Both the position numbers and the translations under genes were made by a program. Of a stretch of DNA of 64,000 bases, positions 3,297 to 29,856 are shown piece by piece. The DNA is from Arenibacter arenosicollis (lineage in GTDB: Bacteria; Bacteroidota; Bacteroidia; Flavobacteriales; Flavobacteriaceae), in NCBI RefSeq assembly GCF_014397245.1, contig NZ_JACLHY010000004.1, positions 62,001-126,000 of the forward strand, in the 5' to 3' direction. Numbering within the stretch: position 1 is the stretch's first letter; each line of letters begins with the position of its first letter. The notes beneath the pieces were generated by a model, which ran no database searches, was not told the DNA's origin, and saw only the letters and a list, made by a program, of their open reading frames with translations.

Positions 3297-4373
3297 TTAG
3301 ACCTCAACGTCTCCGATCAGAAGCCCTATCACCTCTTCCAAAGTATCCAATACTCCAGGATTGGTACAGTTGATCAGAATAGAGAAAACCATATCCTGTT
3401 CCGGATACACATAAAATACCGCATAACCACCTACTCCATTACCCACATGTCCATAATAGGTCCTACCCAACTTATCTTGGGTAACCTGCCAACCTAGACC
3501 ATAGTAGGTAGGAGTCCCGTTAATAATCCCAGAAGTGAGGAATTGGGATTGAATTTTGTTCTCCCTAAACTTGGTATCCAAATACACCTGTCCAAAAAGT
3601 GCAATATCCCTAGATGTGGACAAATAGCCTCCTCCTGCCAATTTGTATGTATTATTTACTGGGATGGCCATCCTGAATCCCAGCTTGCCCCTTGAATAAA
3701 AAGTGGTACAGTTAGGGGGTAATTCCCCAGGAATTTCGGGGAGTGTATTTTTTAAACCATAAGGCCCTAAGATTTTTTCCTGAACATAATCGGCAAAGGG
3801 GATACCACTAACCTCCTGCATGGCCATGGAAATCAATACCCAATCAAAACTGGTATACTGGAAGCCCTTTCCTGGTTCAAAAAGTAAATCATCTTCCTGG
3901 AACAGAGCAAGAGCCTCCTTATTGGTCATAGGCCTATTTAACCCATATTCACCACCACGATAACCTCTCATTCCAGCGGTATGTCCAGCCAACTGACGGA
4001 CTGTGATGTCGAACTTCTTTTTTGGAAAATAGGGAAGGTATTTATAAATAGATGCATCCAAATCCATTTGTCCGTCCTCCACCATGGTGGCCAAAGCAGC
4101 TGCAGCAATGGGTTTAGACACACTGGCTATTCTGAAAATTGTGTTTTGGGGGTCTATGGGAATTTGTTGTTCAACATTTGCATATCCATAGCCTTTCTCA
4201 AAGAACACTGCATTGTTTTTACGTACGGTAATGGCCAGGCCTGGAACCCGCTGGTCATCTATAAGCTTTTGTAAGATTTGATCCGCCTGGATTTTACCCA
4301 TTAATTGCTTGTCCCCACCAATTACCCTTTGGGAAGCTAATAAATCTTTAAGATATTTCAATATAGGATTCAT
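3297..4373 (-). CDS. Serine hydrolase of the beta-lactamase/class C-like family
   Basis: 358 residues. The S-x-x-K catalytic motif is SVSK at residues 84-87. The second motif region (QYTSFDWV) has Ser where the usual Tyr-x-Asn has Asn, and the third is HVGNG in the place of the KTG/HTG box. These match the broad class of penicillin-binding-protein-like esterases and peptidases rather than true beta-lactamases. No clear signal peptide is present, so it may be cytoplasmic or the true start may differ. Substrate unknown. Confidence 0.85.
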   Translation of the reverse strand: MNPILKYLKDLLASQRVIGGDKQLMGKIQADQILQKLIDDQRVPGLAITVRKNNAVFFEKGYGYANVEQQIPIDPQNTIFRIASVSKPIAAAALATMVEDGQMDLDASIYKYLPYFPKKKFDITVRQLAGHTAGMRGYRGGEYGLNRPMTNKEALALFQEDDLLFEPGKGFQYTSFDWVLISMAMQEVSGIPFADYVQEKILGPYGLKNTLPEIPGELPPNCTTFYSRGKLGFRMAIPVNNTYKLAGGGYLSTSRDIALFGQVYLDTKFRENKIQSQFLTSGIINGTPTYYGLGWQVTQDKLGRTYYGHVGNGVGGYAVFYVYPEQDMVFSILINCTNPGVLDTLEEVIGLLIGDVEV

Positions 4374-7591: not shown

Positions 7592-7735
7592 CTTATATGG
7601 CAGCTCCCAATCACTCCTTTCAGTCGCTTTGGGACCGGGCTATCCACTTAATTTTATTATGTTTTTATGTTTAAAAACATAATAAAGATATCGATCCTAT
7701 CCCTGCTGCAAAGGCTGTCGGTCTGGATAGCAATC
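7592..7735 (-). ncRNA. Structured intergenic RNA, Flavo-1-like (tentative)
   Basis: The minus strand holds a perfect 15-bp hairpin (7653-7686, four-base loop) set between two conserved-looking blocks: GCAGCAGGGATAG upstream (revcomp of 7698-7710) and GGATAGCCCGGTCCC downstream (revcomp of 7632-7646). GGATAG-type segments on both sides of a variable hairpin, ending in a GGGAGCTGCC-like tail (near 7602), recall a repeated flavobacterial non-coding element; my recollection fits the Flavo-1 motif, but I could not check it. It lies upstream of metF in the metF direction. It is not an intrinsic terminator for metH, since it comes after the tandem hairpins and has no T-run. Confidence 0.45.
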
Positions 7736-8082: not shown

Positions 8083-10797
8083 CTAATCATCTGCAATATT
8101 GGGCGACAACCATCTCGTGGCTTCCTCCACAGGCATCCCTTTCCGAGCTGCAAAGTCGGCCACCTGATCCTCCTTTATTTTGCCTACTCCAAAATACCGG
8201 GCTTCCTCGTTGCCAAAATAATATCCACTTACACTGGCTGCTGGCCACATGGCCAAGCTATCTGTCAATTCTACCCCGATCTTTTCCTTCACTTCCAATA
8301 ATTCCCAAATGGTCAATTTCTCCAAATGGTCCGGACAGGCCGGGTATCCCGGTGCTGGCCTTATTCCTTTGTACGACTCTTTGATCAGCTCTTCATTGCT
8401 AAGCCCTTCATCGGCGGCATATCCCCAATGGTTGATCCGTACTTCCCTATGCAAATATTCTGCAAAAGCCTCTGCAAAACGATCTGCCAATGCCTTTACC
8501 ATAATACTGTTGTAGTCGTCCAGATCTTTACGGTAACCCTCTGCCAATTCATCTGTTCCAAAGCCCGTGGATACGCAGAAACAACCTATATAATCTTGTA
8601 AACCGCTTTCTTTAGGGGCAATAAAATCTGACAAAGCAAAATTAGGTTTCCCCACATATTTTTTGGCCTGTTGCCTTAAAGTCCTAAAGGTAAATTCCTT
8701 TCCATTGTGTGTCAACAAAATATCATCGTCGTTTACCGAATTGGCAGGAAACAATCCAAATATAGCCTTTGCTTGGAAAAGCTTGCCATCCAAAATCTTT
8801 TTCAGCATTGCCTTGGCGTCATCAAAAAGCTCGGTCGCCTGTTTACCAACGACCTCATCTGACAAAATATCCGGGTACTTGCCATGTAATTCCCAACTTC
8901 TAAAGAAAGGGGACCAATCTATATACGGCTCCAATTCCCGAAAATCAAAATCTTCTATCATTTGAATTCCCAAGGTCTTAGGCTTCACTATTTCGGCCTT
9001 TGACCAATCCAATTGATATTTATTTTTTCTAGCCGCCTCAAGGGTCAAATATTCTTTATGTTTTCCCCTGTTCAGGAATTTTTGTCTAAAATCTGCATAG
9101 TCCAACTTAATGCTCTCCTTGTACTTTTGGGAAGCCTCCTTTTGCAATAGATCCCCTACTACGGTAACTGCCCTAGAAGCGTCGTTAACGTGTACCACGG
9201 CACTATTGTACTGCGGATCTATCTTAACGGCCGTATGGGCCTTACTGGTAGTAGCACCACCGATAAGCAAAGGAACCGTAAAATTTTGTCGCTCCATTTC
9301 TTTGGCCAAAAAGACCATCTCATCCAAGGAAGGGGTAATAAGTCCGCTAAGACCTATAATATCCACTTTTTCCTCCTTGGCAGCATTAATAATTTTCTCG
9401 GGAGGTACCATAACCCCCAAATCTATGATCTCGTAGTTGTTACAGGCAAGGACTACACTAACAATATTTTTTCCTATATCGTGCACGTCGCCTTTTACGG
9501 TGGCCATTAGAATTTTTCCGGCAGACGAGCTGCTTCCTTCCGGCTGGGGATTTTTAAGCTTCTCCTCCTCTATAAACGGTAACAGATAAGCCACTGCTTT
9601 TTTCATGACCCTGGCAGATTTTACCACTTGGGGCAAGAACATCTTACCACTTTGAAAAAGGTCACCCACCACGTTCATTCCGGTCATTAAATGTCCTTCA
9701 ATTACCTCTATTGGGGCTTTTACACTTAAGCGTGCAGCTTCCACATCCTCTACCACGTATTGATCAATTCCCTTGACCAAGGCCCGGGTAATCCTATTTT
9801 GCAAAGGTTCCTCCCTCCAAGAAAGATCTACCTTATTTTCCTTCTCCTTCCCAATTACGGTTTCTGCAAATTCCAATAAGCGTTCAGTGGCGTCTTCCCT
9901 TCGGTTAAGGATTACATCCTCTACGCGCTCCAAAAGGTCTTTTGGAATATCATCATAGACTTCCAACATACTTGGGTTAACAATTCCAATATTCATACCC
10001 GCTTTTATGGCGTGATACAGAAATACCGAATGCATGGCCTCCCTTACCGGGTTATTGCCCCTGAAGCTAAAGGATACATTACTAACCCCTCCACTTACAC
10101 TACAAAAAGGTAAATTTTCCTTCACCCAAGCAGTGGCCTTTATAAAATCGAGCGCATTTAACTTATGCTCGTCCATTCCCGTGGCTACGGGAAAGATGTT
10201 TAAATCAAAAATAATATCCTCTGGTGGAAACCCTACTTTATTTACCAAAATATCATAGGAACGTTTGGTGATTTCCAGTCGCCTCTCATAATTATCGGCC
10301 TGCCCTACCTCATCAAAAGCCATAACAATTACCGCAGCACCGTATCGCCTAATTAATTTGGCGTGCTTAATAAACTCTTCTTCCCCTTCTTTGAGACTTA
10401 TTGAATTTACTACACATTTTCCTTGCACTACCTGCAGACCTGCCTCTATAATATCCCATTTGGAGCTATCGATCATGATAGGGACCCGAGCAATATCCGG
10501 TTCGGCCACAATAAGGTTCAAGAACTTTACCATTACCTCTTTGCCATCGATAAGGCCATCATCCATGTTAACATCAATGATCTGAGCTCCACCCTCTACC
10601 TGTTCGCGGGCAATATCCAAAGCTTCTTCAAACTTCTCCTCCTTGATCAGTCGCAGGAACTTTTTGGAACCCGCCACATTGGTGCGTTCTCCCACATTTA
10701 CGAAATTGCTTTCTGGGGTTATCACCAAAGGTTCCAATCCGGAAAGTTTTAAAAACCGTTTTGTACTATGTTGTTCCTTATCCTTAGTATTGCTCAT
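8083..10797 (-). CDS. metH: Cobalamin-dependent methionine synthase, C-terminal part (pterin, B12 and activation domains)
   Basis: 904 residues. It has the pterin-binding domain ([10 protein letters not shown], residues 31-40, to about 290), the cobalamin cap (about 330-415), the B12-binding domain with DVHDIG at 437-442 (His439 is the lower axial ligand) and the S-adenosylmethionine-dependent activation domain with [12 protein letters not shown] near residue 820. The homocysteine-binding domain is absent and is encoded separately at 11780-12793, so the enzyme is split. It transfers methyl from methyl-THF through cobalamin to homocysteine. The start ATG is 44 bases after the PLP enzyme gene. 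Confidence 0.97.
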
Positions 10798-10841: not shown

Positions 10842-11783
10842 TTAAAATGGCAAATTTGATAGTTCCACATTACCTCCAGAGAGGATGATTCCTATTTTTT
10901 TATTCCTAAACTTTTCTTTTTCTTTCAACAAGGCCGCAAACGGCACTGCACTGGATGGTTCTATTACCAGTTTCATCCGCTCCCAAATTAATTTCATGGC
11001 ATCGATGATCTCCTTTTCCTCCACCCTAATAATATCAGAAACCAATGCGATGATAATTGGGAAATTTTTATCCCCCAAGTTTGTCTTTAGTCCGTCCGCG
11101 ATAGTATCTGACGATATATTATACTTTATTTTTCCACTCTTCAAAGCTCTATAGGCGTCATCCACTTCCATTGGCTCACCCCCGACAACTGCGCAATTGG
11201 TCCCAAAATAGTGGGCCGCCAAGGCCGTACCAGCTATGAGTCCGCCACCACCTACTGGAGTCATAATGAACTCCAAATCGGGCTGGTCCTTTAATAATTC
11301 CAAGGCCGCGGTACCTTGACCTAAAATTACATTGAGGTCATTGGACGGGTGTAAAAAAACCGCTCCCTTTTCCTCAACAATGGTTGCCGCAGATTTTTCC
11401 CTGGCTTCCAATGTAGGTTCCGAGATCGTAACCACTCCACCATAGGCCTTCACTGCTTCAATCTTTACAGATGGGGCACTGGATGGCATTACTATATATG
11501 CCTTTACCCCCAAATTCTTTGCTGCCAAGGCCAAGGCCTGACCAAAATTTCCAGAGGAATGGGTTACCACTCCTGCCTTTTTCTGAGCCTCACTTAATTG
11601 CTGAATGGCGTTGATAGCTCCCCGCATTTTAAAAGCACCCATTTTTTGAAGATTCTCACATTTAAAGAAAACCTCCGCTCCAGATAATTCGTTCAATAAA
11701 CGGGAGGAGAGCACCGGTGTTCTATGAACAAAGGGGGCTACTCTATTTCCTGCTTCAAGAACAATTTGTCTAGAAGGTATCAT
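10842..11783 (-). CDS. PLP-dependent threonine/serine dehydratase-like enzyme (fold type II)
   Basis: 313 residues, without the C-terminal regulatory domain of biosynthetic IlvA. The PLP lysine is Lys52 in GAFKMRGA, the phosphate-binding loops are SSGNFGQA (about 76-83) and VGGGGLIAG (about 177). The family includes catabolic threonine ammonia-lyase, serine dehydratase and serine racemase, and I cannot choose among them. Its ATG overlaps the stop of the homocysteine-binding MetH part by four bases (ATGA), so it is translationally coupled inside the split metH operon. That position hints at a link with serine or threonine as one-carbon or homoserine-pathway metabolites, but this is inference. 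Confidence 0.85.
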
Positions 11784-12793
11784 ATGTTATGCGTTTCCAG
11801 GGTATTTAGGGTTCTAGGGGAATAGTTCTTAACAATATCGGCCATTGCTTTTATATGTTCAGGAGTGGTCCCGCAACATCCACCCACAATATTCACTAAA
11901 CTCTTTTCCGCATATTCCTTGATCTGCATTGCCATCTCCTCCGGAGTTTCATCATATTCCCCAAAGGCATTTGGTAATCCCGCATTTGGATGCGCAGATA
12001 CGGCATGCTCGGTCTTGGCTGATAGCACCTCTAAATGAGGCACCAACTGACTAGCTCCAAGGGCGCAGTTGAATCCTACTGACAAAATGGGTATATGGCT
12101 TATGGATATTAGGAATGCCTCGGCCGTTTGCCCCGATAGGGTTCTACCGGAAGCATCCGTTATAGTACCACTTATCATAATTGGTACGTCTATATTTCGT
12201 TCTTCCTTTACCTCTTCAATAGCAAATAAGGCGGCCTTTGCATTTAAAGTATCAAAAACCGTCTCTACCAATAAAATATCCGCTCCTCCGTCCAAAAGTG
12301 CCTCCACCTGTTGTTTGTAGGCTACGCGCAGTTCATCAAAAGAAACCCCTCTAAAGCCGGGATCATTCACATCTGGCGACATACTGGCAGTTTTATTCGT
12401 AGGCCCAATACTCCCAGCCACAAACCGTGGCTTATCAGGTTCGCGGGCCGTAAACTCTTCCGCTACTGCCTTGGCTATTTTGGCCGATTCATAATTTAGT
12501 TCGTAAACCAAATCTTCCATATGGTAGTCCGCCATTGCAATGGTGGTACTGGAAAATGTATTTGTTTCAACAATATCCGCACCAGCAGCAAAATACAGGC
12601 GGTGTACTTCAGCAATAGCCTCGGGCTGGGTGAGGGATAAAAGATCGTTATTTCCCTGTAAAGGGTGTTCCCATTCCTTAAATCGTTCTCCCCTAAAGTC
12701 CTCTTCAGTGTATTTATGTCGCTGTAACATGGTGCCCATAGCGCCATCCAACACCAAAATTCTTTCCTTTAGTACGTCTTGAATCTTCTTCAT
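11780..12793 (-). CDS. Methionine synthase, homocysteine-binding part
   Basis: 337 residues from the ATG at 12793 (a TTG four codons upstream is less likely). [13 protein letters not shown] near residue 12 and the zinc-binding cysteines (GFNCALG and VGGCCGT) mark a homocysteine S-methyltransferase domain with the three Cys ligands kept. It works with the separate C-terminal MetH at 8083-10797. It is the first gene after a SAM-I riboswitch, so the whole set is probably turned down by high SAM. The split arrangement is common in Bacteroidota; the gene lying between the two halves is less usual. Confidence 0.95.
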
Positions 12794-12986
12794 ATTACTT
12801 TTCAAAAATGTTTGCTCCCTTATGGGTCAAAACCAAGATGCTATTATATGATGTCCCAAATTACTTGGGAAACACAAAATTATAAAAATGACACCCGAAA
12901 ACAATGGATTACCCCCTAGTTATCGGTATCAAAAAAAATAAATAAAATCAAGTAAGGAAAAGTTTTAGACCAGCGTCTTTCTTTAT

Positions 12987-13140
12987 GTTATCTATTCCCA
13001 TATAAAATTCCATGTAAATAGAATAAAAACAGGATTAGAATGTAGCACCTTCTTTATTCTTCCCGATAGTTGTCGAAAATGAAAAAAGGGTTGCTAAGGC
13101 TTCACCGGGTCTAGTCCCTCCGCCTTTCTTGATAACGTTT
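12987..13140 (-). promoter_or_regulatory. SAM-I (S-box) riboswitch in the metH leader
   Basis: On the minus strand the core reads TTATCAAGAAAGGCGGAGGG, then a GACTAGACCC...GAAGCCTTAGCAACC segment (13088-13137) and AAGGTGCTACATTC (about 13030-13045), the conserved S-box blocks in order. P1 can form between GTTATC (13131-13136 region) and GATAAC (12987-12992), and a P4 hairpin lies in between. It is about 200 bases before the MetH start, with a CCCAA/TTGGG hairpin between. Binding of SAM should lower expression of the metH operon. Confidence 0.93.
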
Positions 13141-13257: not shown

Positions 13258-14322
13258 TTATGCCAAAATACTTTGAACTACTTCTTTTTTAGCTTCCTTC
13301 TTGCTACCGTCAAATCCTTCTACCCCACCTACAGTGGTATATTTCATTACATAACGCTTTCCAGGATTGATCAACTGGTAAGCACTCTGACACATAACGG
13401 CCGCTTCATGGAAGCCGGACAATATTAATTTAAGCTTTCCAGGATAAGTGTTTACATCGCCGATGGCATAAACTCCTGGAATATTGGTTTGATAATCGTA
13501 GGCGTTGTTCACCTTGATGGCATTTTTTTCAATTTCAAACCCCCAATCACCAATAGGTCCCAATTTTGGAGAAAGTCCGAAAAGTGGAATAAAATTATCC
13601 GCTTCCACATAGGTTTCACCTTTTGCTTCATCATTATGTTTTACCACAACGGCTTCCAAATTATCGTCTCCGTATAATTTAACCACCTCAGCTTCGGTAT
13701 ATAATTTAATTTTACCAAGTTTGGCCAAGTCAGCTGCTTTTTCTACAGAATCCAAAGCACCCCTAAATTCATTTCTTCTGTGTACCAAAGACACTTCCGC
13801 AGCTACATCCGAAAGGAATATTGCCCAATCCAACGCAGAATCCCCACCTCCGGAGATAACCACCTTTTTATCCCTATACACTTCAGGGTCTTTAATGATA
13901 TATGCTACACCCTTATCCTCAAAATCCACCAAATTGGGAATCAAGGGTTTTCTTGGTTCAAAAGACCCCAATCCGCCAGCAATAACCACCACAGGCGCCT
14001 GATGTTTTGTTCCTTTATTTGTGGTTACCACAAATGAACCGTCATCCAACTTATCCAGTGTCTGTGCTCTTTCACCCAAAGTAAACCCAGGCTCAAATGG
14101 TTGAATTTGTTGCATCAGATTTTTTACCAAATCACCGGCAAGAATTTCCGGGAATGCTGGAATATCATAAATAGGTTTCTTAGGATAAATTTCAGAACAC
14201 TGACCCCCAGGTTGAGGCAATGCATCTATAAGATGCGTCTTCAATTTCAATAATCCCGCTTCAAAAACCGTGAACAACCCTGTTGGACCTGCTCCAATTA
14301 TAAGTATATCTGTCTTTATCAT
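13258..14322 (-). CDS. NAD(P)/FAD oxidoreductase, ferredoxin-NADP reductase (thioredoxin reductase-like type)
   Basis: 354 residues. The FAD site GAGPTGLF is at residues 7-14 and the NAD(P) site GGGDSALDWA is near residue 158; no redox CxxC pair is present in the place used by thioredoxin reductase. GVYAIGDVNTYPG is the second FAD contact. This is the pattern of the homodimeric TrxR-like ferredoxin-NADP reductases. As the last gene after sulfite reductase and cobA it could supply reduced ferredoxin for sulfite reduction. Family call good; the partner is inferred from gene order. Confidence 0.88.
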   Translation of the reverse strand: MIKTDILIIGAGPTGLFTVFEAGLLKLKTHLIDALPQPGGQCSEIYPKKPIYDIPAFPEILAGDLVKNLMQQIQPFEPGFTLGERAQTLDKLDDGSFVVTTNKGTKHQAPVVVIAGGLGSFEPRKPLIPNLVDFEDKGVAYIIKDPEVYRDKKVVISGGGDSALDWAIFLSDVAAEVSLVHRRNEFRGALDSVEKAADLAKLGKIKLYTEAEVVKLYGDDNLEAVVVKHNDEAKGETYVEADNFIPLFGLSPKLGPIGDWGFEIEKNAIKVNNAYDYQTNIPGVYAIGDVNTYPGKLKLILSGFHEAAVMCQSAYQLINPGKRYVMKYTTVGGVEGFDGSKKEAKKEVVQSILA

Positions 14323-14399: not shown

Positions 14400-15233
14400 T
14401 TACTGTGCCACTTGGTGGCTATTTAATATTTCGGTATAATTCAATATTGCGGACCGGTGGTTTACCACCTCCCCGATAATAATAATCGCAGGGTTGCTCA
14501 ATTGCTCTTTAGCTACCAGATTCTCAATTGAACCTATAGTCCCAACACCTACCTTTTCATCTTCACGTGTGCCATTTTGAATAATGGCGATGGGTGTTTC
14601 AGATTTTCCCTCGCTCTTAAATAACCCAACAATCTCAGAAAGTTTGCTCATCCCCATCAGTATTACAATAGTAGCATTTGATTTTGCTGCCAAAGCTACA
14701 TCCGTGGATAATTTATGATCCTTTGTTGTACCCGTAATTACCCAAAAACTTTCGGCAGCACCCCTTTTGGTGACGGGAATGTTTTGGGAAGCAGGTACGG
14801 CCACCGATGAGGATATCCCTGGTACCATGGCTACTTTTATGCCTTTACTGGCGGCGAATTCCATTTCTTCCGCCCCTCTACCAAAAACAAAGGGATCACC
14901 TCCTTTTAATCTTACAACGTGGCCGTGGGTTTTGGCCCTACTAACTATAAGATCATTTATCTGTTCCTGCTGATAGGCATAGCATCCTTTCCTTTTTCCC
15001 ACAAATATATGTTCGGCATTAGGAGCATAATTCAATAGGGAAACATCCACAAGGGCATCGTACAATACCACGTCGGCCGCCTGTAAGGCCTTTACTGCCT
15101 TTAGCGTTATTAATTCCACATCGCCAGGTCCAGCACCCACAACGGTCAACTGTCCAAGCTTATCAGCTTCCCCATTTGACCTAAGGTCCGCCAGCGTGGT
15201 ATTAACATGAATATTATCTTCCTTGCCGATCAT
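14400..15233 (-). CDS. cobA: Uroporphyrinogen-III C-methyltransferase
   Basis: 277 residues of the single-domain SUMT type: VGAGPGDVELITLKA near residue 30, LKGGDPFVFGRG near the middle, then MVPGISSSVAVPA. It methylates uroporphyrinogen III to precorrin-2 using SAM, the branch to siroheme and cobalamin. It begins two bases after the sulfite reductase stop, so the two are co-translated. That makes sense because sulfite reductase needs siroheme. No dehydrogenase/chelatase gene for the later siroheme steps is in the window. Confidence 0.95.
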   Translation of the reverse strand: MIGKEDNIHVNTTLADLRSNGEADKLGQLTVVGAGPGDVELITLKAVKALQAADVVLYDALVDVSLLNYAPNAEHIFVGKRKGCYAYQQEQINDLIVSRAKTHGHVVRLKGGDPFVFGRGAEEMEFAASKGIKVAMVPGISSSVAVPASQNIPVTKRGAAESFWVITGTTKDHKLSTDVALAAKSNATIVILMGMSKLSEIVGLFKSEGKSETPIAIIQNGTREDEKVGVGTIGSIENLVAKEQLSNPAIIIIGEVVNHRSAILNYTEILNSHQVAQ

Positions 15234-15235
15234 TA

Positions 15236-17326
15236 CTATGCGTTTGTCAATTCTAATTTCCTATAAGCTTCCACATTGCCCAAAAATTCTTCGGCATCTT
15301 TCAAATACGCTTTTGCAAAGGCTTCTGTTGGTGCATTCTGATTTAATTGAAGTACCATTTTCTCAAATCCTTGCTCCAATTTGAATTTCCCCGTGGCCAC
15401 AAACAACTTATCAAAATCCTTAATGATACTGATATGTGTATTTACCTTGGTATTTTCAGCTGTCAATAAAGCCTTGGCCGTATTAACCATTGATGAATAG
15501 GAATGATAGATACTGGCTGCCCATTTTTCTTCTTCCAAATTCAATTTTGCAGTTTCAATCTTTTCCTCACTGTCAAACAACAAAGTGGCTATCAAATCTA
15601 TTACTACCCCTGCACATTCTCCAATACCAATGGCTTGTTCATATTTTTCAGAAGTACCCCAATCAATAAAATCGGATGCTTCCAAGTTATCCACATCTGA
15701 CAAGGGCTTTAGAAAGTCATAAAAGTACATTTGACCTTTTTCCTCATAATAGTCCACAAAGGATTTCCCGTTGCCGTTGGCATCATAATCGTTTAAAATA
15801 AACCTTAATGCCTCAGGACCCCTTTTACTAGGTATCTTAATTACCTTATCTGCAAATCGGCCGTTTCCATTTCCTAAATTACCACCTCCCAAAAGCACTT
15901 GAAGCGCTGGAGCCACCAATTTATTCTTTGTTCTAACAGACATACCCTGGAAACCAATATTGGCCATATTGTGCTGGCCACAGGCATTCATACATCCACT
16001 AATCTTAATAACCACGTCCGTATTATTGATATAATGGGGGTATTCCGCCTTAATTACCCTTTCCAATTCATCCGCTATCCCAGTACTACTGGCAATTCCC
16101 AAATTACAGGTATCGGTTCCTGGACAAGCGGTAATATCCAAGGCAGTATTGTATCCAATCTCTGCGAAGCCCAATTTTTCCAATTCTTGATAGAAAAAAG
16201 GTACCAGCGATTCCTTAACATAAGGAATCAAGATATTCTGACGCAGACTCAATCTAATTTCACCTGCAGCATATTTTTCTACTAGATCTGCCAATTGTCT
16301 GGCTTTTTCTATATAAAAATCACCCAATAAAACCTTTACCCCAATAGCAACATATCCCTGTTGTTTTTGAGGAACCAAGTTGGTAGCCTTCCATTTATCA
16401 AAGGCTTTCTGGTCTTTAATAGTTACTTCAGGAGCAATATTCTCTGCAATATTCACACTTGGATAGGCATCCGCATCTATTTCGTAAGTCTGGACAGGTA
16501 TTGCCAATTGCTCTTCTTCCAACAATTGCTTAAATCCGTCCAAGCCAATATCCTTCAACAAGAATTTCATTCTTGCTTTTGCCCTACTTTTTCTTTCCCC
16601 AAAACGGTCAAAAACACGAACTACTCCTTCCATTAAAGGGATGATCTTGTCTGTAGGTAAAAAAGAATAAATTTCATCTGCATGTCTAGGCTGTGAGCCC
16701 AATCCACCACCCAAAAGCACTTTAAATCCTCTTACACCATTCTCTATCTTAGCAATAAAGCCAAGATCGTGCATGTATGAAAGACCCGTATCCTCATCTG
16801 AGGAAGAAAAGGAAACTTTAAACTTCCTCCCCATTTCCTGACTTATTGGGTTTCTTAAAAAATATTGAAACAAGGCATGTGCATAAGGGGAAACATCGAA
16901 TGGTTCGTTTACATCTATTCCAGCAGTTTCGCTGGCCGTTACGTTCCTCACTGTATTTCCACAGGCTTCCCTGATCGTAATATCATCCTGCTCCAACTGT
17001 GCCCATAATTCAGGTGTACGGTTAATATCCACATAATGAATCTGAATATCCTGACGGGTAGTAATATGAAGTCGACCCGTAGAGTATTCTTCGGAAACGT
17101 CACATATCCTTCTTAACTGCTGAGAGCTAACTTTCCCATAGGGCAATTTTATACGAATCATTTGGACACCAGGTTGTCTTTGACCATAAATTCCCCTAGC
17201 CAATCTTAGACTACGGAATTTCTCCTCATCCAAACTACCGCCTTGAAATTCACGGATCTTAGCTTCCAATGCTATGATATCCTGTTCTACAACCGGGTTT
17301 TCCACTTCTGTTCTGAAAGTCCGCAT
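15236..17326 (-). CDS. Ferredoxin-type sulfite (or nitrite) reductase, siroheme/4Fe-4S
   Basis: 696 residues. Two pairs of cysteines that hold the siroheme-4Fe-4S centre are seen: CPGTDTC (Cys401, Cys407) and CMNAC (Cys445, Cys449). The N-terminal half (GRLHITTRQDIQIHYVD) is the other ferredoxin-like half of the duplicated reductase. About 130 extra C-terminal residues, mostly helical, follow the core; the family is normally near 550-600. Context (cysHDN upstream, cobA downstream) favours sulfite over nitrite. A likely Rrf2 operator lies 48 bases upstream. Confidence 0.9.
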   Translation of the reverse strand: MRTFRTEVENPVVEQDIIALEAKIREFQGGSLDEEKFRSLRLARGIYGQRQPGVQMIRIKLPYGKVSSQQLRRICDVSEEYSTGRLHITTRQDIQIHYVDINRTPELWAQLEQDDITIREACGNTVRNVTASETAGIDVNEPFDVSPYAHALFQYFLRNPISQEMGRKFKVSFSSSDEDTGLSYMHDLGFIAKIENGVRGFKVLLGGGLGSQPRHADEIYSFLPTDKIIPLMEGVVRVFDRFGERKSRAKARMKFLLKDIGLDGFKQLLEEEQLAIPVQTYEIDADAYPSVNIAENIAPEVTIKDQKAFDKWKATNLVPQKQQGYVAIGVKVLLGDFYIEKARQLADLVEKYAAGEIRLSLRQNILIPYVKESLVPFFYQELEKLGFAEIGYNTALDITACPGTDTCNLGIASSTGIADELERVIKAEYPHYINNTDVVIKISGCMNACGQHNMANIGFQGMSVRTKNKLVAPALQVLLGGGNLGNGNGRFADKVIKIPSKRGPEALRFILNDYDANGNGKSFVDYYEEKGQMYFYDFLKPLSDVDNLEASDFIDWGTSEKYEQAIGIGECAGVVIDLIATLLFDSEEKIETAKLNLEEEKWAASIYHSYSSMVNTAKALLTAENTKVNTHISIIKDFDKLFVATGKFKLEQGFEKMVLQLNQNAPTEAFAKAYLKDAEEFLGNVEAYRKLELTNA

Positions 17327-17373: not shown

Positions 17374-17398
17374 TTATCCCATAGGGATAATAGATTAA
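17374..17398. promoter_or_regulatory. Candidate Rrf2-type operator before sulfite reductase
   Basis: TTATCCCAT-N7-ATAGATTAA, 25 bases, has the same 9-7-9 layout and 18 of 25 identical bases as the site at 20819-20843. It sits 48 bases before the sulfite reductase ATG, between that gene and cysN. Confidence 0.6.
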
Positions 17399-17437
17399 AC
17401 TGACAACGACACCATACCCTAGGGCACGGAAGGAGGT

Positions 17438-18685
17438 TTAGTTTATAAACCCGACCCCAGCTGTTGTATTGGACTGATTATCTATTAAGATAAAAGAGCC
17501 ATTGGTACGGTGATTCTTGAATGAATCGTAAAAAATTGGCTTATTCAATCTAAAGGTAACCTGTGCTATATCGTTCATTCCCAAGGCAGTAATAGTCGTA
17601 TCGATACCTGAGTAATCCGGATTAATTTTATGGTGAATGTTCTCCACCTTGGCCAAAACCTTATTCACTCCGTGTTGCACAACATATTTGCTTCCCACAG
17701 TTAAATTTTGTGAATCCATCCATGAAACCGTAGCTGTAAATTGCTTATCTATTGTTGGCAAGTCACCTACTTTTACCAACATATCTCCCCTGCTTACATT
17801 GATCTCATCTTCCAAGGTAATGGTTACGGAAGAACGTCTTGTTGCAGTTTTATATTTCTTGTCGTAGAAATAGATTTCCTTGATTTTGGATTTGGTCATG
17901 GATGGCAAGACCACTACTTCATCACCTACACTCAGCTCACCTCCATATACTTTTCCAGCAAATCCTCTAAAATCATGGAATTCTTCTGTTTTGGGACGTA
18001 TCACATATTGAACCGGAAATCTTGGGGTACCTACATTGTAAATATCCTTTCTATCCAATTCCTCAAAATGTTCCAAAAGAGTTTGCCCTTTGTACCACGC
18101 CATTTTCTCTGACCTGTTTACCACGTTGTCACCCTTAAGCGCACTTACGGGAATAAAGGTAATTTTCTGGTCCTGGTAATCGCGCTTACTCATCAGCTCC
18201 TCAAAATCGGCTTTGATCTCATTGTATCTTTCCTCTGAGTAATCAACCAAGTCCATTTTATTTATGGCAACAATAACATCTTTTATCCTCAATAAGTTAT
18301 TGATAAAAAAGTGTCTGTTGGTCTGCTCTATCACTCCTTTTCGAGCGTCGATCAAAATAATGGCCGCTTGCGAAGTAGACGCACCAGTAACCATGTTACG
18401 GGTATATTCCACGTGACCAGGGGTATCCGCAATGATATAACTCTTATTGGGCGTTGAGAAATAGATATGAGCTACATCTATAGTAATTCCCTGTTCCCTT
18501 TCCGCTACCAAACCATCTGTAGCCAAGGAGAAATCCAGATAATCATATCCTTTCTGCTTGCTGGTCTTTTCTATGGCCTCCAACTTATCGTCAGTCAGGG
18601 ATTTGGTATCATAAAGCAATCTTCCGATCAAGGTACTTTTACCGTCATCTACACTTCCTGCTGTTGCTATTTTTAGTACTTCCAT
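17438..18685 (-). CDS. cysN: Sulfate adenylyltransferase subunit 1 (GTPase)
   Basis: 415 residues from the ATG at 18685; a longer TTG reading at 18727 adds 14 residues not typical of the family. The GTPase motifs are GSVDDGKST (residues 10-18), DTPGH and NKMD, followed by two beta-barrel domains as in elongation factor-like CysN. No APS kinase domain is fused. With CysD it makes APS from sulfate and ATP at the cost of GTP. It is encoded right after cysD in the same operon. Confidence 0.96.
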   Translation of the reverse strand: MEVLKIATAGSVDDGKSTLIGRLLYDTKSLTDDKLEAIEKTSKQKGYDYLDFSLATDGLVAEREQGITIDVAHIYFSTPNKSYIIADTPGHVEYTRNMVTGASTSQAAIILIDARKGVIEQTNRHFFINNLLRIKDVIVAINKMDLVDYSEERYNEIKADFEELMSKRDYQDQKITFIPVSALKGDNVVNRSEKMAWYKGQTLLEHFEELDRKDIYNVGTPRFPVQYVIRPKTEEFHDFRGFAGKVYGGELSVGDEVVVLPSMTKSKIKEIYFYDKKYKTATRRSSVTITLEDEINVSRGDMLVKVGDLPTIDKQFTATVSWMDSQNLTVGSKYVVQHGVNKVLAKVENIHHKINPDYSGIDTTITALGMNDIAQVTFRLNKPIFYDSFKNHRTNGSFILIDNQSNTTAGVGFIN

Positions 18686-18762
18686 TTCTTTTGTGTTTTG
18701 TATTTGACATTGAGATTTCGTTGACAATTTTTACAAGTGCCAACACACTTCAAATGCCGACT

Positions 18763-19719
18763 TTAAAAGTATCCTTGTTGTTTTCTTTTCTCCATTGCGG
18801 CTTCGGAACGTTTATCATCTATTCTAGCTCCTCTTTCCGAAATCTTGGACTCCCTAATTTCGCCTACTACCTTTTCAATGGTATCTGCGTGGGACAATAC
18901 CGCCGAAGTACAACTCATATCTCCAACAGTTCTAAAACGAACCATGCGCTCTTCCACTTTTTCATCCTCAGCACGGAAGACAACATCATCTTCTGCCGAC
19001 CATATAAATCCGTCCCTTAGGAAAATCTTTCTTTTATGCGCAAAATAGATGGAAGGTATTTCTATGTCCTCTTTTTGGATATAGCTCCAAACATCCAATT
19101 CTGTCCAGTTACTTATTGGAAAAACCCTTACGTTCTGACCCAATTCTATCTGACCGTTCAACATATCAAACAACTCTGGGCGTTGGTTCTTCTCATCCCA
19201 CTGACCAAAATCGTCACGAACCGAAAAGATGCGTTCTTTGGCACGGGCCTTTTCTTCATCCCTTCTGGCTCCACCAATACAGGCATCGAACTTAAATTCC
19301 TCAATGGCATCCAACAAGGTTGTAGTCTGCAACATATTCCTACTGGAGTATTTACCAGTTTCCTCTACCACTTTTCCTTGGTCTATGGAATCCTGTACGT
19401 TACGAACAATCAATTCCACTCCTAATTCCTTAACCAACTTATCCCTAAAGGCGATGGTTTCCGGAAAATTATGCCCAGTATCAATATGCATTAAAGGGAA
19501 CGGTATTTTAGCAGGAAAAAAGGCTTTTTGCGCCAATCTCACCAAGGTTATGGAGTCTTTACCACCCGAAAAAAGCAACACTGGCTTTTCAAACTGTGCC
19601 GCAACTTCCCTTAAAATATAAATTGCTTCGTTCTCCAAAGCATTATTGTTCAATACTTCCAATTCATTCGATCCGCTCACGTCTACTAGTGTTTCCAATT
19701 CTGATTCTACAATGCTCAC
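18763..19719 (-). CDS. cysD: Sulfate adenylyltransferase subunit 2
   Basis: 318 residues. The PP-loop motif SGGKDS is near residue 50, and ARRDEEKARAKERIFSVRD and the C-terminal CTSAVLSHADT are typical of CysD. Translation begins with GTG at 19719; no ATG fits the N-terminus. It forms the APS-making complex with CysN, whose start is 77 bases after its stop. The leader before it (19735-19769) has a weak AATTGGT/ACCAATT hairpin. Confidence 0.96.
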   Translation of the reverse strand: MSIVESELETLVDVSGSNELEVLNNNALENEAIYILREVAAQFEKPVLLFSGGKDSITLVRLAQKAFFPAKIPFPLMHIDTGHNFPETIAFRDKLVKELGVELIVRNVQDSIDQGKVVEETGKYSSRNMLQTTTLLDAIEEFKFDACIGGARRDEEKARAKERIFSVRDDFGQWDEKNQRPELFDMLNGQIELGQNVRVFPISNWTELDVWSYIQKEDIEIPSIYFAHKRKIFLRDGFIWSAEDDVVFRAEDEKVEERMVRFRTVGDMSCTSAVLSHADTIEKVVGEIRESKISERGARIDDKRSEAAMEKRKQQGYF

Positions 19720-19784
19720 AATAATTCTTTATTTAATTGGTTTTCCTTCAAAAGAAGCATTCACCAATTGTTAATATTCTTTTC

Positions 19785-20408
19785 TTAGGTATGCAGTCCA
19801 CATTCCCGGTTTTCCAAAACCTTGGTGGGATCAAAGTACTTATGCTCATTAGGCAAATTCCTATCCTTAAGGTAAGCATCCAATTGACTATCACTATAAT
19901 GATAGAATGGACTCACCTTCAAAACCCCATCGCGACTTAAACTTAAGATATCCAAAGAATCCCTTAATGCTGTCTGCCCTTGCCTAAGATTGGTAAACCA
20001 TACATCTGGCTTATGCTCCTCCATAGCCCTTCTAAAGGGTTCCAATTTTACCTGTTCTGTAAAAAGCTGATGTCTGGGATCATCTATACCCGGAATTCCC
20101 ATGACAGCATCCCTATGAGAGGAAGTTTGTTTGGGAACATATAATTTTACATTTAAATGCAACCTCGCAATAAGCTCTTCTGCATGTTTATATGTATTGG
20201 GCGTATTATAACCCGTATCGCACCAAACCACAGGAATTTTAGGAGCAACATCGGTTACTGCATGCAAAATAGCCACTTCATAAGGCCTGAAATTTGTAGT
20301 TACCAACGGATTCTCGGCATATTGAATAGCCCAGGAAATTATTTCCTCCGGTGGTATACCCTTAAATTGTTGATTTAGTTTATGTATTTCCTGCTCTGTA
20401 AATGCCAT
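19785..20408 (-). CDS. cysH: Phosphoadenylyl-/adenylyl-sulfate reductase (CysH family), no Fe-S cysteines
   Basis: 207 residues from the ATG at 20408; a TTG at 20459 would overlap the DUF2061 gene. The PAPS reductase fold has the C-terminal ECGLH motif with the catalytic Cys. Only two cysteines are present (WCDTG and ECGLH), so the CC and CxxC pairs that hold a 4Fe-4S cluster in bacterial APS reductases are missing. By family rules this points to a PAPS-type enzyme needing CysC, or to an unusual APS reductase without the cluster. cysC is not in this window. The gene is between DUF2061 and cysD. Confidence 0.92.
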   Translation of the reverse strand: MAFTEQEIHKLNQQFKGIPPEEIISWAIQYAENPLVTTNFRPYEVAILHAVTDVAPKIPVVWCDTGYNTPNTYKHAEELIARLHLNVKLYVPKQTSSHRDAVMGIPGIDDPRHQLFTEQVKLEPFRRAMEEHKPDVWFTNLRQGQTALRDSLDILSLSRDGVLKVSPFYHYSDSQLDAYLKDRNLPNEHKYFDPTKVLENRECGLHT

Positions 20409-20446
20409 TGTCTCTGATTCTTTAAATTCTTTGGATTCTATTTCCT

Positions 20447-20716
20447 CTACCTTCCCCAATTAATCTTATTCCATATCCTTTCATGAAAGAAATACAATAT
20501 CATCTTGGTAAACAACTCTACAACCCCGATAGAAAATGCAACGGACAAAGTCCCGGTAACGATCCAAGAAATTAAGATAGTATCCAAGGTTCCAATAATT
20601 CTCCAACTAATAGATTTAGCAATACTCCTTTTAGGGTTTTCGGTACGCTTATCAGCCTTATAGCTTTTAGTTGCAGTACTTGTATTATTATTTGCAATTA
20701 ATTGTTCAGCAATCAT
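20447..20716 (-). CDS. DUF2061 small membrane protein
   Basis: 89 residues. A polar N-terminus is followed by the DUF2061 core: SISWRIIGTLDTILISWIVTG, then a second hydrophobic stretch ending in YFFHERIWNKINW. Two membrane segments are expected. The family is very often found at the head of sulfate assimilation operons in Bacteroidota and marine bacteria and its biochemical role is unknown. It is the first gene after the promoter at 20765-20793. Confidence 0.85.
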   Translation of the reverse strand: MIAEQLIANNNTSTATKSYKADKRTENPKRSIAKSISWRIIGTLDTILISWIVTGTLSVAFSIGVVELFTKMILYFFHERIWNKINWGR

Positions 20717-20738
20717 ATGACAAAAAAACTTAAATTTA

Positions 20739-20763
20739 TTACCCTATCGATTTAATAGAGTAA
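20739..20763. promoter_or_regulatory. Candidate Rrf2 operator 1, overlapping the cys operon transcription start
   Basis: A 25-base imperfect palindrome, TTACCCTAT-N7-ATAGAGTAA. It begins one base past the predicted -7 element (20765-20772), so a bound protein would block initiation. It is 23 bases before the DUF2061 ATG. Confidence 0.75.
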
Positions 20764-20764
20764 G

Positions 20765-20793
20765 CAAAAATAGAAATATTTTTTAGAACACAA
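20765..20793 (-). promoter_or_regulatory. Promoter of the DUF2061-cysH-cysD-cysN operon
   Basis: On the minus strand TATTTTTG (20765-20772) matches the Bacteroidota -7 consensus TAnnTTTG, and TTG (20791-20793) is 18 bases upstream as the -33 element. It faces the DUF2061 start and lies between two candidate operators. Confidence 0.65.
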
Positions 20794-20818
20794 TAGAAAA
20801 AGTTATATAAAATTAAAC

Positions 20819-20843
20819 TTACCCTATAAATTTAGTAGATTAA
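20819..20843. promoter_or_regulatory. Candidate Rrf2 operator 2
   Basis: TTACCCTAT-N7-GTAGATTAA, 25 bases, 21 of 25 identical to operator 1 and 80 bases away. A weaker related stretch (ACCCCTAATC then GGTAGATTTA) occurs at 20918-20938. It lies upstream of the promoter elements. Confidence 0.7.
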
Positions 20844-20940
20844 TAAAAAATACGCTTAATATTTGAAGATTATCAATGTTTTATTGCGTAATTACCATGC
20901 AAGATTTACAAATATAAACCCCTAATCTGGTAGATTTACC

Positions 20941-21351
20941 CTATGGCACAAGGTCTGCAAGCGTGTTGTTCCTAAAAACCTCCAAGGTGCTATCCCTAAC
21001 CTGTAACATTAATTTATGAACGGAACAGCTTGCCTCATCCGGGCAGTCCTCACATTTTTCATAGAAGTTTAAGCTTACACATGGCACCATGGCTATAGGA
21101 CCTTCCAAAACCCTCATGACAGTGGTCATGGGTATATCTTTTGGTTCTTTTATAAGGTAATATCCCCCGCCCTTTCCTTTTTTGGAACCTAGTAGGCCCG
21201 TTTTTCGCAAGGTGAGAAGAATACTCTCAAGAAATTTTTGGGAAATATTCTCATGCTTGGCTATTTCAGAAATTTGAACAGGAGCACGCCCTTTTTGAGA
21301 CGCCAAGAAGGTCAGTGCCTTTAATCCGTATTTGGTCTTTTTGGAAAGCAT
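20941..21351 (-). CDS. Rrf2 family transcriptional regulator
   Basis: 136 residues. An N-terminal winged helix-turn-helix (MLSKKTKYGLKALTFLA... KFLESILLTLRKTGLL) and the Rrf2 signature GKGGGYYL are clear. Cysteines at 91, 100, 103 and 109 form a cluster typical of Fe-S or redox-sensing members such as IscR. CymR, another family member, controls cysteine genes in Firmicutes. This gene is directly upstream of the cys operon on the same strand, and near-identical palindromes lie in the gap between them, so it is probably the local regulator of sulfate assimilation. The ligand is not known. Confidence 0.92.
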   Translation of the reverse strand: MLSKKTKYGLKALTFLASQKGRAPVQISEIAKHENISQKFLESILLTLRKTGLLGSKKGKGGGYYLIKEPKDIPMTTVMRVLEGPIAMVPCVSLNFYEKCEDCPDEASCSVHKLMLQVRDSTLEVFRNNTLADLVP

Positions 21352-28206: not shown

Positions 28207-28346
28207 GTTATCTGCCATGGATACTGCAAAAAAATCCAATTTTCATTGGAGCAGTATTTAGGTAGAATTTAGCACCTTCTTTAATAAATGATCAAAGGGT
28301 TGCTAAGGCTTCAAAGGGTCTATTCCCTCCACCTTTCTTGATAACA
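28207..28346 (-). promoter_or_regulatory. SAM-I (S-box) riboswitch in the metY leader
   Basis: The minus strand has TTATCAAGAAAGGTGGAGGG, then AATAGACCC, GAAGCCTTAGCAACC and AAGGTGCTAAATTC, the conserved S-box blocks. P1 pairs GTTATC (28340-28345) with GATAAC (28207-28212). A P4 hairpin ATACTGC...GCAGTAT with an inner TCCAAT/ATTGGA lies between. It is about 130 bases before the MetY start. Confidence 0.95.
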
Positions 28347-28375
28347 ATTCAATAAGTGTTTGAACTTTAGGTTTG

Positions 28376-29679: not shown

Positions 29680-29772
29680 AAATCCTTTCTAAATAAAAAA
29701 TTAATAAGAATTTGACGAAGCATACTAAAGAAGAGTGGATGTTATTGCTCGTATAGAGCATAAACACCATAA

Positions 29773-29843
29773 ACTGCTTTAGCATTTTGTTATGCCGAAC
29801 CTATTTCAGCACTTGAGGTTGCAATCAGTCAAATCTTTCCTCG
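29773..29843 (-). promoter_or_regulatory. SAM-II-type riboswitch in the metK leader
   Basis: On the minus strand the order is CGAGG (29839-29843), GATTTGACTGATTGCAA, CCTC (29815-29818), an extra hairpin TGCTG...CGGCA, then AAAATGCTAAAGCAGT (29773-29788). These match the SAM-II pattern: P1 by GAGG/CCTC, a U-rich first loop with GATTT...ATTGCAA, and a 3' segment GCTAAAG. The ACTG of the loop can pair with CAGT of the 3' segment for the pseudoknot. A further GCTC/GAGC hairpin (29744-29760 region) stands between the aptamer and metK and may be the output. Call made from memory of the family; not run against a model. Confidence 0.75.
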
Positions 29844-29856
29844 ATATTTTCGGCTA

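Follow-up and report, generated by a model that had tools for sequence, protein, structure and literature searches.

Which protein controls the sulfate assimilation genes of Arenibacter arenosicollis (Flavobacteriaceae), and through which DNA site, is the question raised by a locus in which rrf2, the gene of an Rrf2-family regulator, neighbours the DUF2061-cysHDN and sir-cobA genes. The locus lies within a stretch of 64,000 nucleotides (contig NZ_JACLHY010000004.1, positions 62,001 to 126,000 of the forward strand), hereafter the window. A sequence-only reading had proposed three 25-bp near-palindromes, two flanking a TTG promoter that faces DUF2061-cysHDN and a third before sulfite reductase, together with an adjacent Rrf2 gene encoding a four-Cys cluster. 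All three near-palindromes are found where they had been placed and their comparative conservation is strong, the promoter and the cysteines are present, and the third copy is the weakest:

20739-20763, minus strand: predicted proximal operator, TTACTCTATTAAATCGATAGGGTAA, 28.5 bits, following the -7 element at a distance of 1 nt
20765-20793, minus strand (read from 20793 to 20765): promoter-like TTG-N18-TATTTTTG before DUF2061-cysHDN, read from the sequence
20819-20843, minus strand: predicted distal operator, TTAATCTACTAAATTTATAGGGTAA, 24.2 bits
17374-17398, minus strand: third predicted operator, 5' of sir, TTAATCTATTATCCCTATGGGATAA, weaker (12.8 bits)
20941-21351, minus strand: rrf2, Rrf2-family regulator of 136 aa (PF02082, 127.6 bits, cut-off 30)

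Comparison of the relatives that possess both the regulator and the 25-letter site at the gene start points to a control circuit of sulfur assimilation, and we consider it highly probable that the Rrf2 protein would act as the repressor of a sulfur-assimilation and redox regulon via the 25-bp operator. Of the proposed regulator-operator set for sulfur uptake, the pair itself is supported by the comparison, while the genes concerned belong to sulfate assimilation and redox metabolism and not to uptake proper.

Predicted operators in the window

The TTG-N18-TATTTTTG element is taken here to be the usual promoter type of this bacterial group; the distal site lies 25 bp upstream of its TTG and the proximal site would be positioned over the expected transcription start. 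The arms of the three sites are self-complementary in 8, 6 and 6 of 9 pairs. No further exact match to their joint pattern exists in the 5.4-Mb genome, which is weak evidence because the pattern was built from those three sites. A mismatch search with this earlier pattern was discarded as uninformative: with up to three mismatches, five matches occur in the window, where shuffling gives a mean of 2.39 and 8 of 100 shuffles attain the same number, and 173 in the whole genome versus 200 for the reversed pattern, neither count being a clear excess over chance. The strong evidence for the predicted sites is comparative.

Among eight Arenibacter sequences (the window and seven genomes), 22 of 25 positions are invariant in each of the two sites before DUF2061, compared with 8 of 97 positions upstream of the distal site and 31 of 55 between the sites; the leader 3' of the proximal site is conserved too (20/22). 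Equally, the sir site has 21 of 25 invariant positions versus 46 of 86 around it. Its score of 12.8 bits in the window ranges from 10.8 to 17.8 bits in the seven other genomes and reaches at least 12 bits in seven of the eight sequences, the exception being L269 with 10.8. We take the predicted sir site as real and secondary, the weakest of the sites.

Co-occurrence of site and regulator across the family

The family survey comprised 149 Flavobacteriaceae genomes, one per genus, of which 111 contain a match to the Rrf2 protein with an E value of at most 1e-10. An ortholog, defined by at least 57% identity, occurs in 101 genomes, the window included, and the regions of the other 100 were retrieved. 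Ten genomes with only distant matches (at most 52% identity) were scored as lacking the ortholog in the comparison with cysH and excluded from the peroxiredoxin and pattern comparisons below. With cysH present in 95 genomes, both genes occur in 92, cysH alone in 3, the ortholog alone in 9 and neither in 45 (p 2e-25, Fisher p values here and below ignoring the relatedness between genomes).

Sites were scored with a symmetric 25-column matrix, seeded with the three window sites and converged on the intergenic regions 3' of rrf2. The sequence-only reading had named the cys operons of close relatives as the place where its proposal could fail. A predicted site of at least 12 bits is found within 450 bp upstream of DUF2061 or cysH in all 92 genomes with ortholog and cysH. 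The named loci, the best 80 of 580 confirmed candidates, include 77 with a site before one or the other of these genes. In these counts, the family loci scored are also the training regions of the matrix and the named loci are close relatives of them. The remaining three named loci, L304 (Tenacibaculum), L341 and L346 (Aquimarina), have no cysH after rrf2. At L341, from an uncultured Aquimarina, a palindromic site (3897-3921, AAAGCCTACTAATTTAGTAGGCTTT, 23.1 bits) precedes rrf2 itself, which suggests rrf2 autoregulation there.

Independent scoring is confined to held-out test regions and to loci from other families. Upon training on 20 loci of at least 80% identity and testing on loci below 75% identity, 12 of the 42 test loci being dropped as no DUF2061 or cysH follows rrf2, a site of at least 10 bits was found in 27 of 30 held-out regions versus 3 of 600 shuffles. 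Relatives of the protein at about 43-62% identity exist in other families of the class and phylum, and 20 such distant loci were retrieved, one of them (L423) from the same family. Seven of the eight with cys genes possess a site; in five of the eight a site of at least 12 bits lies within about 110 bp of a cys gene, and in L416 and L420 it is located right after rrf2, about 800 bp before cysD. No recognised cys gene lies near rrf2 in the other 12.

All 87 loci with DUF2061 or cysH in the retrieved stretch display a site of at least 14.1 bits within the same 450 bp, and where rrf2 is located elsewhere, the five cysH loci still possess one (13.5 to 28.6 bits). In G142, which harbours two cysH copies, one beside rrf2 and one elsewhere, both have the site (15.9 and 12.7 bits). 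In the three genomes with cysH and without the ortholog (G066, G123 and G147), the best score is below zero (p 7e-6). G123 (99% complete) has kept metZ-DUF2061-cysHDN-sir, with no rrf2 and no site between metZ and DUF2061; metZ is the name used here for the gene that in the window lies on the other side of rrf2 and is near O-succinylhomoserine sulfhydrylase (511.6 bits versus a cut-off of 522).

Within the locus, no site of at least 10 bits was found in the 200 bp before metZ (0/55), cysD (0/57), cysN (0/55), cobA (0/57), the flavoprotein gene (0/54), metH1 (0/34) and metH2 (0/24), and such a site precedes rrf2 in 1 of 101 and sir in 14 of 59 loci. Overall, 16 of the 59 sir loci display an upstream site, and 14 of these 16 have orthologs of at least 77% identity.

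Position beside the promoter and mode of control

The motif TAnnTTTG, presumably the -7 element of this bacterial group, ends 0-9 nt before the site in 72 of 83 regions, with about 6 expected in the upstream span, and starts 3 nt after the site in 6 further regions, in total standing beside the site in 78 of 83. Repression by blocking would be the natural reading of this position because a dimer bound there would cover the start or the spacer.

The alternative that the protein binds these sites mainly as an activator, acting for example from the distal one while the proximal one tunes expression, is unlikely in our view. Such activation would agree with a distal site 25 bp upstream of the promoter TTG and with the fixed distance in two-site regions, 16 of 17 having sites 79-81 bp apart and one 260 bp apart. 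However, most of the 83 regions contain one site of 12 bits and not two, placed beside the -7 element in nearly all, which is the blocking position, and the distal site is limited to closer relatives, the 16 regions with the 79-81 bp spacing having orthologs of at least 76% identity.

We infer that the protein binds the site as a dimer and represses rather than activates. In the proposed repression mechanism, a dimer would occupy the 25-bp operator, with a family consensus of about WWAYYCTAYTAAATCGATAGGRTWA, which would overlap the expected start directly behind TAnnTTTG (in few lineages it lies directly before it), and RNA polymerase would be blocked. In Arenibacter-like genera, a second dimer 80 bp upstream would bracket the promoter. 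Upon a fall in sulfur or Fe-S supply, the protein would release the DNA and DUF2061-cysHDN, sir-cobA and a 1-Cys peroxiredoxin gene would be expressed.

Assignment of the site to the Rrf2 ortholog

Sequence comparison has shown the site, where it stands relative to the promoter element, how constantly it accompanies the ortholog and which targets recur. Binding of the sites by some other regulator, be it a second Rrf2 protein or a factor outside the family, with rrf2 a mere neighbour, seems quite improbable. The Arenibacter genome itself encodes one other Rrf2 protein over the cut-off, and members of the Rrf2 family can resemble one another in their binding motifs, as passages of one report describe for IscR and CymR (PMC3828012). 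On the other hand, the ortholog is the only Rrf2-family protein in G044, G049 and G075, all three of which carry the site, G123 and the incomplete G066 combine a different Rrf2 protein and cysH with no site (G147 has no Rrf2 match), and the site persists where rrf2 is far away. Because of these single-Rrf2 genomes, the siteless genomes with another Rrf2 protein and the five unlinked cases, the predicted site can be attributed to this ortholog with about as much confidence as a sequence comparison can give, with genome completeness as the caveat.

That the inverted repeat is an RNA hairpin in the 5' leader instead of a DNA operator is scarcely credible: the proximal copy would be transcribed at least partly and the Arenibacter leader 3' of it is conserved, but the promoter begins only downstream of the distal copy, in 6 of 83 regions the -7 element comes after the site, which would be untranscribed from there, and Rfam at gathering thresholds finds nothing at the site positions.

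Further predicted targets

The predicted regulon appears wider than the sulfate genes and would include a peroxiredoxin gene and, in some genera, a ferredoxin-like gene, metK, TauE/SafE permease genes and cysE-cysK. Inspection of the matches of a genome-wide pattern search identified a 1-Cys peroxiredoxin (PF00578 and PF10417) as the second recurrent target. In the Arenibacter genome, this gene is preceded by a fourth site (G000:C56:119546-119570, 18.9 bits), which was already among the whole-genome hits of the earlier pattern. A site of at least 12 bits occurs in 17 of 30 peroxiredoxin loci, 16 of the sites having their centre 31-47 nt upstream of the start codon and one 62 nt upstream, and a site precedes a 2Fe-2S-ferredoxin-like gene in 7 of 30 loci from some other genera; neither count is independent, as the peroxiredoxin, ferredoxin and metK targets were discovered in many of the same genomes that were later counted. 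The evidence on ferredoxin is thin, the protein falling below the cut-offs of Pfam and NCBIfam models, and with 7 of 30 it was rejected as a general target. The peroxiredoxin (at least 60% identity) is encoded in 31 of 39 genomes with the ortholog versus 1 of 38 without. In G126, which has the ortholog and no cysH, the peroxiredoxin site is the sole pattern hit in the genome (reversed control 2). metK is preceded by a site in two genera (L188, identified by Pfam, and L151, by resemblance). Furthermore, G127 displays sites before two TauE/SafE permease genes and before a cysE-like gene with cysK downstream and a sulfatase gene alongside; the CysE-like protein scores below the cysE cut-off (171.7 of 210.65), which makes this thin evidence, and CysE was dismissed as a general target since a site of 12 bits is present in two of the 30 loci scanned (L436 and L439).

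Genomes with the ortholog gave 127 pattern hits in 39 genomes versus 31 for the reversed pattern, and those without, mostly smaller, 39 in 38 genomes versus 22, where some excess remains; palindromic hits score on both strands in these counts. The hits looked at comprise 20 loci of the first genome-wide search, 20 further ones and some of those from a second search, and hits within open reading frames (for example L146, L148, L149, L157, L189, L190, L193 and L200) were not counted as targets. L189 and L190, from two genera, share one 25-bp match within the beginning of a LuxC-like gene, next to which a 4Fe-4S ferredoxin gene points in the opposite direction; this match is either a coding coincidence or a divergent operator. 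A FadL-like gene at G000:C14 (L183, 16.1 bits) was set aside as target. On contig G127:C27, three similar sites (L425, L426 and L427) occur within about 34 kb, two about 0.5 kb upstream of TonB-dependent receptor-like genes (the one at L425 identified by Pfam) and the third before the cysE-like gene and cysK, near the sulfatase gene and a gene for a PF03601 membrane protein; an organosulfur-scavenging cluster under the same control is possible.

The regulator in comparison with known systems

Among named sequences, the Rrf2 protein is closest to Arenibacter (Flavobacteriaceae) proteins, at 97-99% identity. Cys91 is kept in 100 of 101 aligned orthologs, Cys100, Cys103 and Cys109 in all 101 and His112 in 69. 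The motif Lx3Gx6Gx2GGx2L, given as an Rrf2-family motif in a section of one report (PMC9338935), is present as L48, G52, G59, G62-G63 and L66. The fold model is good (pLDDT 85.6) except for the Cys loop, which is followed by a helix at 110-127. The nearest solved fold is CymR (TM-score 0.81, 33% identity); by sequence, Thermincola potens IscR matches best of all solved structures (E 7e-21), ahead of CymR (8e-17). The protein misses both the NCBIfam CymR model NF047409 (85.6 bits, cut-off 195) and the IscR model TIGR02010 (73.8 bits, cut-off 207.55).

CymR of Bacillus subtilis and Staphylococcus aureus, a repressor of cysteine metabolism according to parts of two reports (PMC3828012, PMC3519770), shares the Rrf2 fold with the window protein. 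The kinds of targets, cysteine and sulfur genes, overlap as far as the predicted sites of the window go: as with CymR, predicted operators are found at the cysHDN and sir promoters and, in G127, at cysE-cysK and TauE/SafE. B. subtilis CymR binds no Fe-S cluster and works in complex with O-acetylserine thiol-lyase, as stated in a section of one report (PMC9338935). Unlike CymR, the window protein possesses four almost invariant cysteines as candidate ligands, and its predicted sites also precede the peroxiredoxin and the ferredoxin-like gene.

The Fe-S regulators of the Rrf2 family (T. potens IscR, Escherichia coli IscR, RisR and RirA) have conserved cysteines before the dimerisation helix, as here. 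In IscR, NsrR, RirA and RisR, three loop cysteines are shown or predicted cluster ligands in the portions of the reports that cover them (PMC5863699, PMC9973013), and the RisR ligands Cys102 and Cys108, as given in a portion of the latter (PMC9973013), are spaced like Cys103 and Cys109 here, whereas the first interval differs (10 versus 12). Unlike with IscR-type Fe-S regulators, the predicted targets here are sulfate assimilation genes. An Fe-S cluster on the window protein is likely by analogy because the loop cysteines are conserved as in IscR, NsrR, RirA and RisR; a simple thiol switch, or control through a partner protein as in CymR, is a conceivable alternative. From the four almost invariant loop cysteines we therefore infer that a CymR-like repressor is governed by Fe-S or thiol chemistry, and the best description of the protein would be a sulfur repressor of the CymR kind that carries cysteines like those of IscR. 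A Bacteroidota-wide Rrf2 repressor that would have merged the roles of CymR and IscR, gauging sulfur sufficiency by the occupancy or oxidation of an Fe-S cluster at the four cysteines and adjusting sulfate assimilation, ferredoxin and the 1-Cys peroxiredoxin by this single signal, is a tentative extension, conceivable and somewhat short of probable; the ferredoxin may then feed sulfite reductase.

Observations that weigh against the proposed repressor circuit

Several observations count against the proposed circuit. The argument from joint loss is thin: the siteless G066 and G147 are only 80% and 73% complete, with cysH about 30 nt after another gene and hence perhaps without a promoter of its own, and G123, the only clean siteless case, has DUF2061 about 75 nt after metZ. 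The joint absence of cysH and rrf2 is partly genome reduction, because genomes without both are often small. Among the nine genomes with ortholog and without cysH, clear targets are found only in G126 and G127, and G007, G073 and G101 have no pattern hit genome-wide. Equally, 43 of 59 sir loci have no site, sites of 12 bits are missing from 13 of 30 peroxiredoxin and 23 of 30 ferredoxin loci, and L414, from another family, has cys genes and no site. Finally, the Cys loop has been modelled with low confidence.

Gene neighbourhood and further elements of the window

The gene order around rrf2 largely recurs across the family, as seen in a synteny comparison. The genes of the locus are:

20447-20716, minus strand: DUF2061, a small membrane protein whose gene heads the operon (PF09834, 82.4 bits; synteny)
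19785-20459, minus strand: cysH, PAPS reductase family (PF01507 over cut-off; NCBIfam cysH models match below cut-offs)
18763-19719, minus strand: cysD (TIGR02039, 425.5 bits, cut-off 396.6)
17438-18727, minus strand: cysN (TIGR02034, 497.9 bits, cut-off 336.1)
15236-17326, minus strand: sir, sulfite/nitrite reductase-type hemoprotein (PF01077, PF03460; NCBIfam models below cut-off)
14400-15233, minus strand: cobA, uroporphyrinogen-III C-methyltransferase (TIGR01469, 275.5 bits, cut-off 185)
13258-14322, minus strand: thioredoxin-reductase-like flavoprotein, conserved neighbour (TIGR01292, 146.4 bits, below the cut-off of 343.45; synteny)

cobA is probably on the sir transcript because the two genes are separated by a 2-nt gap. 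The C-terminal residues 582-649 of the sir protein match a HEPN domain (26.5 bits, cut-off 22), to our knowledge an unusual stretch on a sulfite reductase-type enzyme. Neighbouring genes are provisionally labelled thrA/metX, metY and metH. Equally provisional are the names of two genes like parts of methionine synthase (8083-10797 and 11780-12805, minus strand) and of a threonine-dehydratase-like gene between them. The window also contains two SAM riboswitches and a SAM-II riboswitch, at 12985-13138, 28240-28347 and 29769-29848 on the minus strand; therefore the neighbouring methionine-type genes may be under RNA control and the cysteine side under Rrf2 operators. A Flavo-1 RNA is found at 7629-7711, minus strand (42.7 versus a gathering score of 42).

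Significance

The sequence-only reading knew of no described site of this kind, and none was found among open-access titles and abstract starts, RegPrecise being outside the scope of the search; the same literature yielded no Rrf2 regulon of this kind in Flavobacteriaceae. The analysis provides a regulator, an operator and a set of targets that can be put to the test for sulfate assimilation, in a large marine bacterial group for which the literature searched describes none. Furthermore, the company of regulator and site across genera is a good case for the evolution of Rrf2 DNA specificity. If the proposed sensing is true, one protein would link sulfur supply, peroxide defence and Fe-S chemistry.

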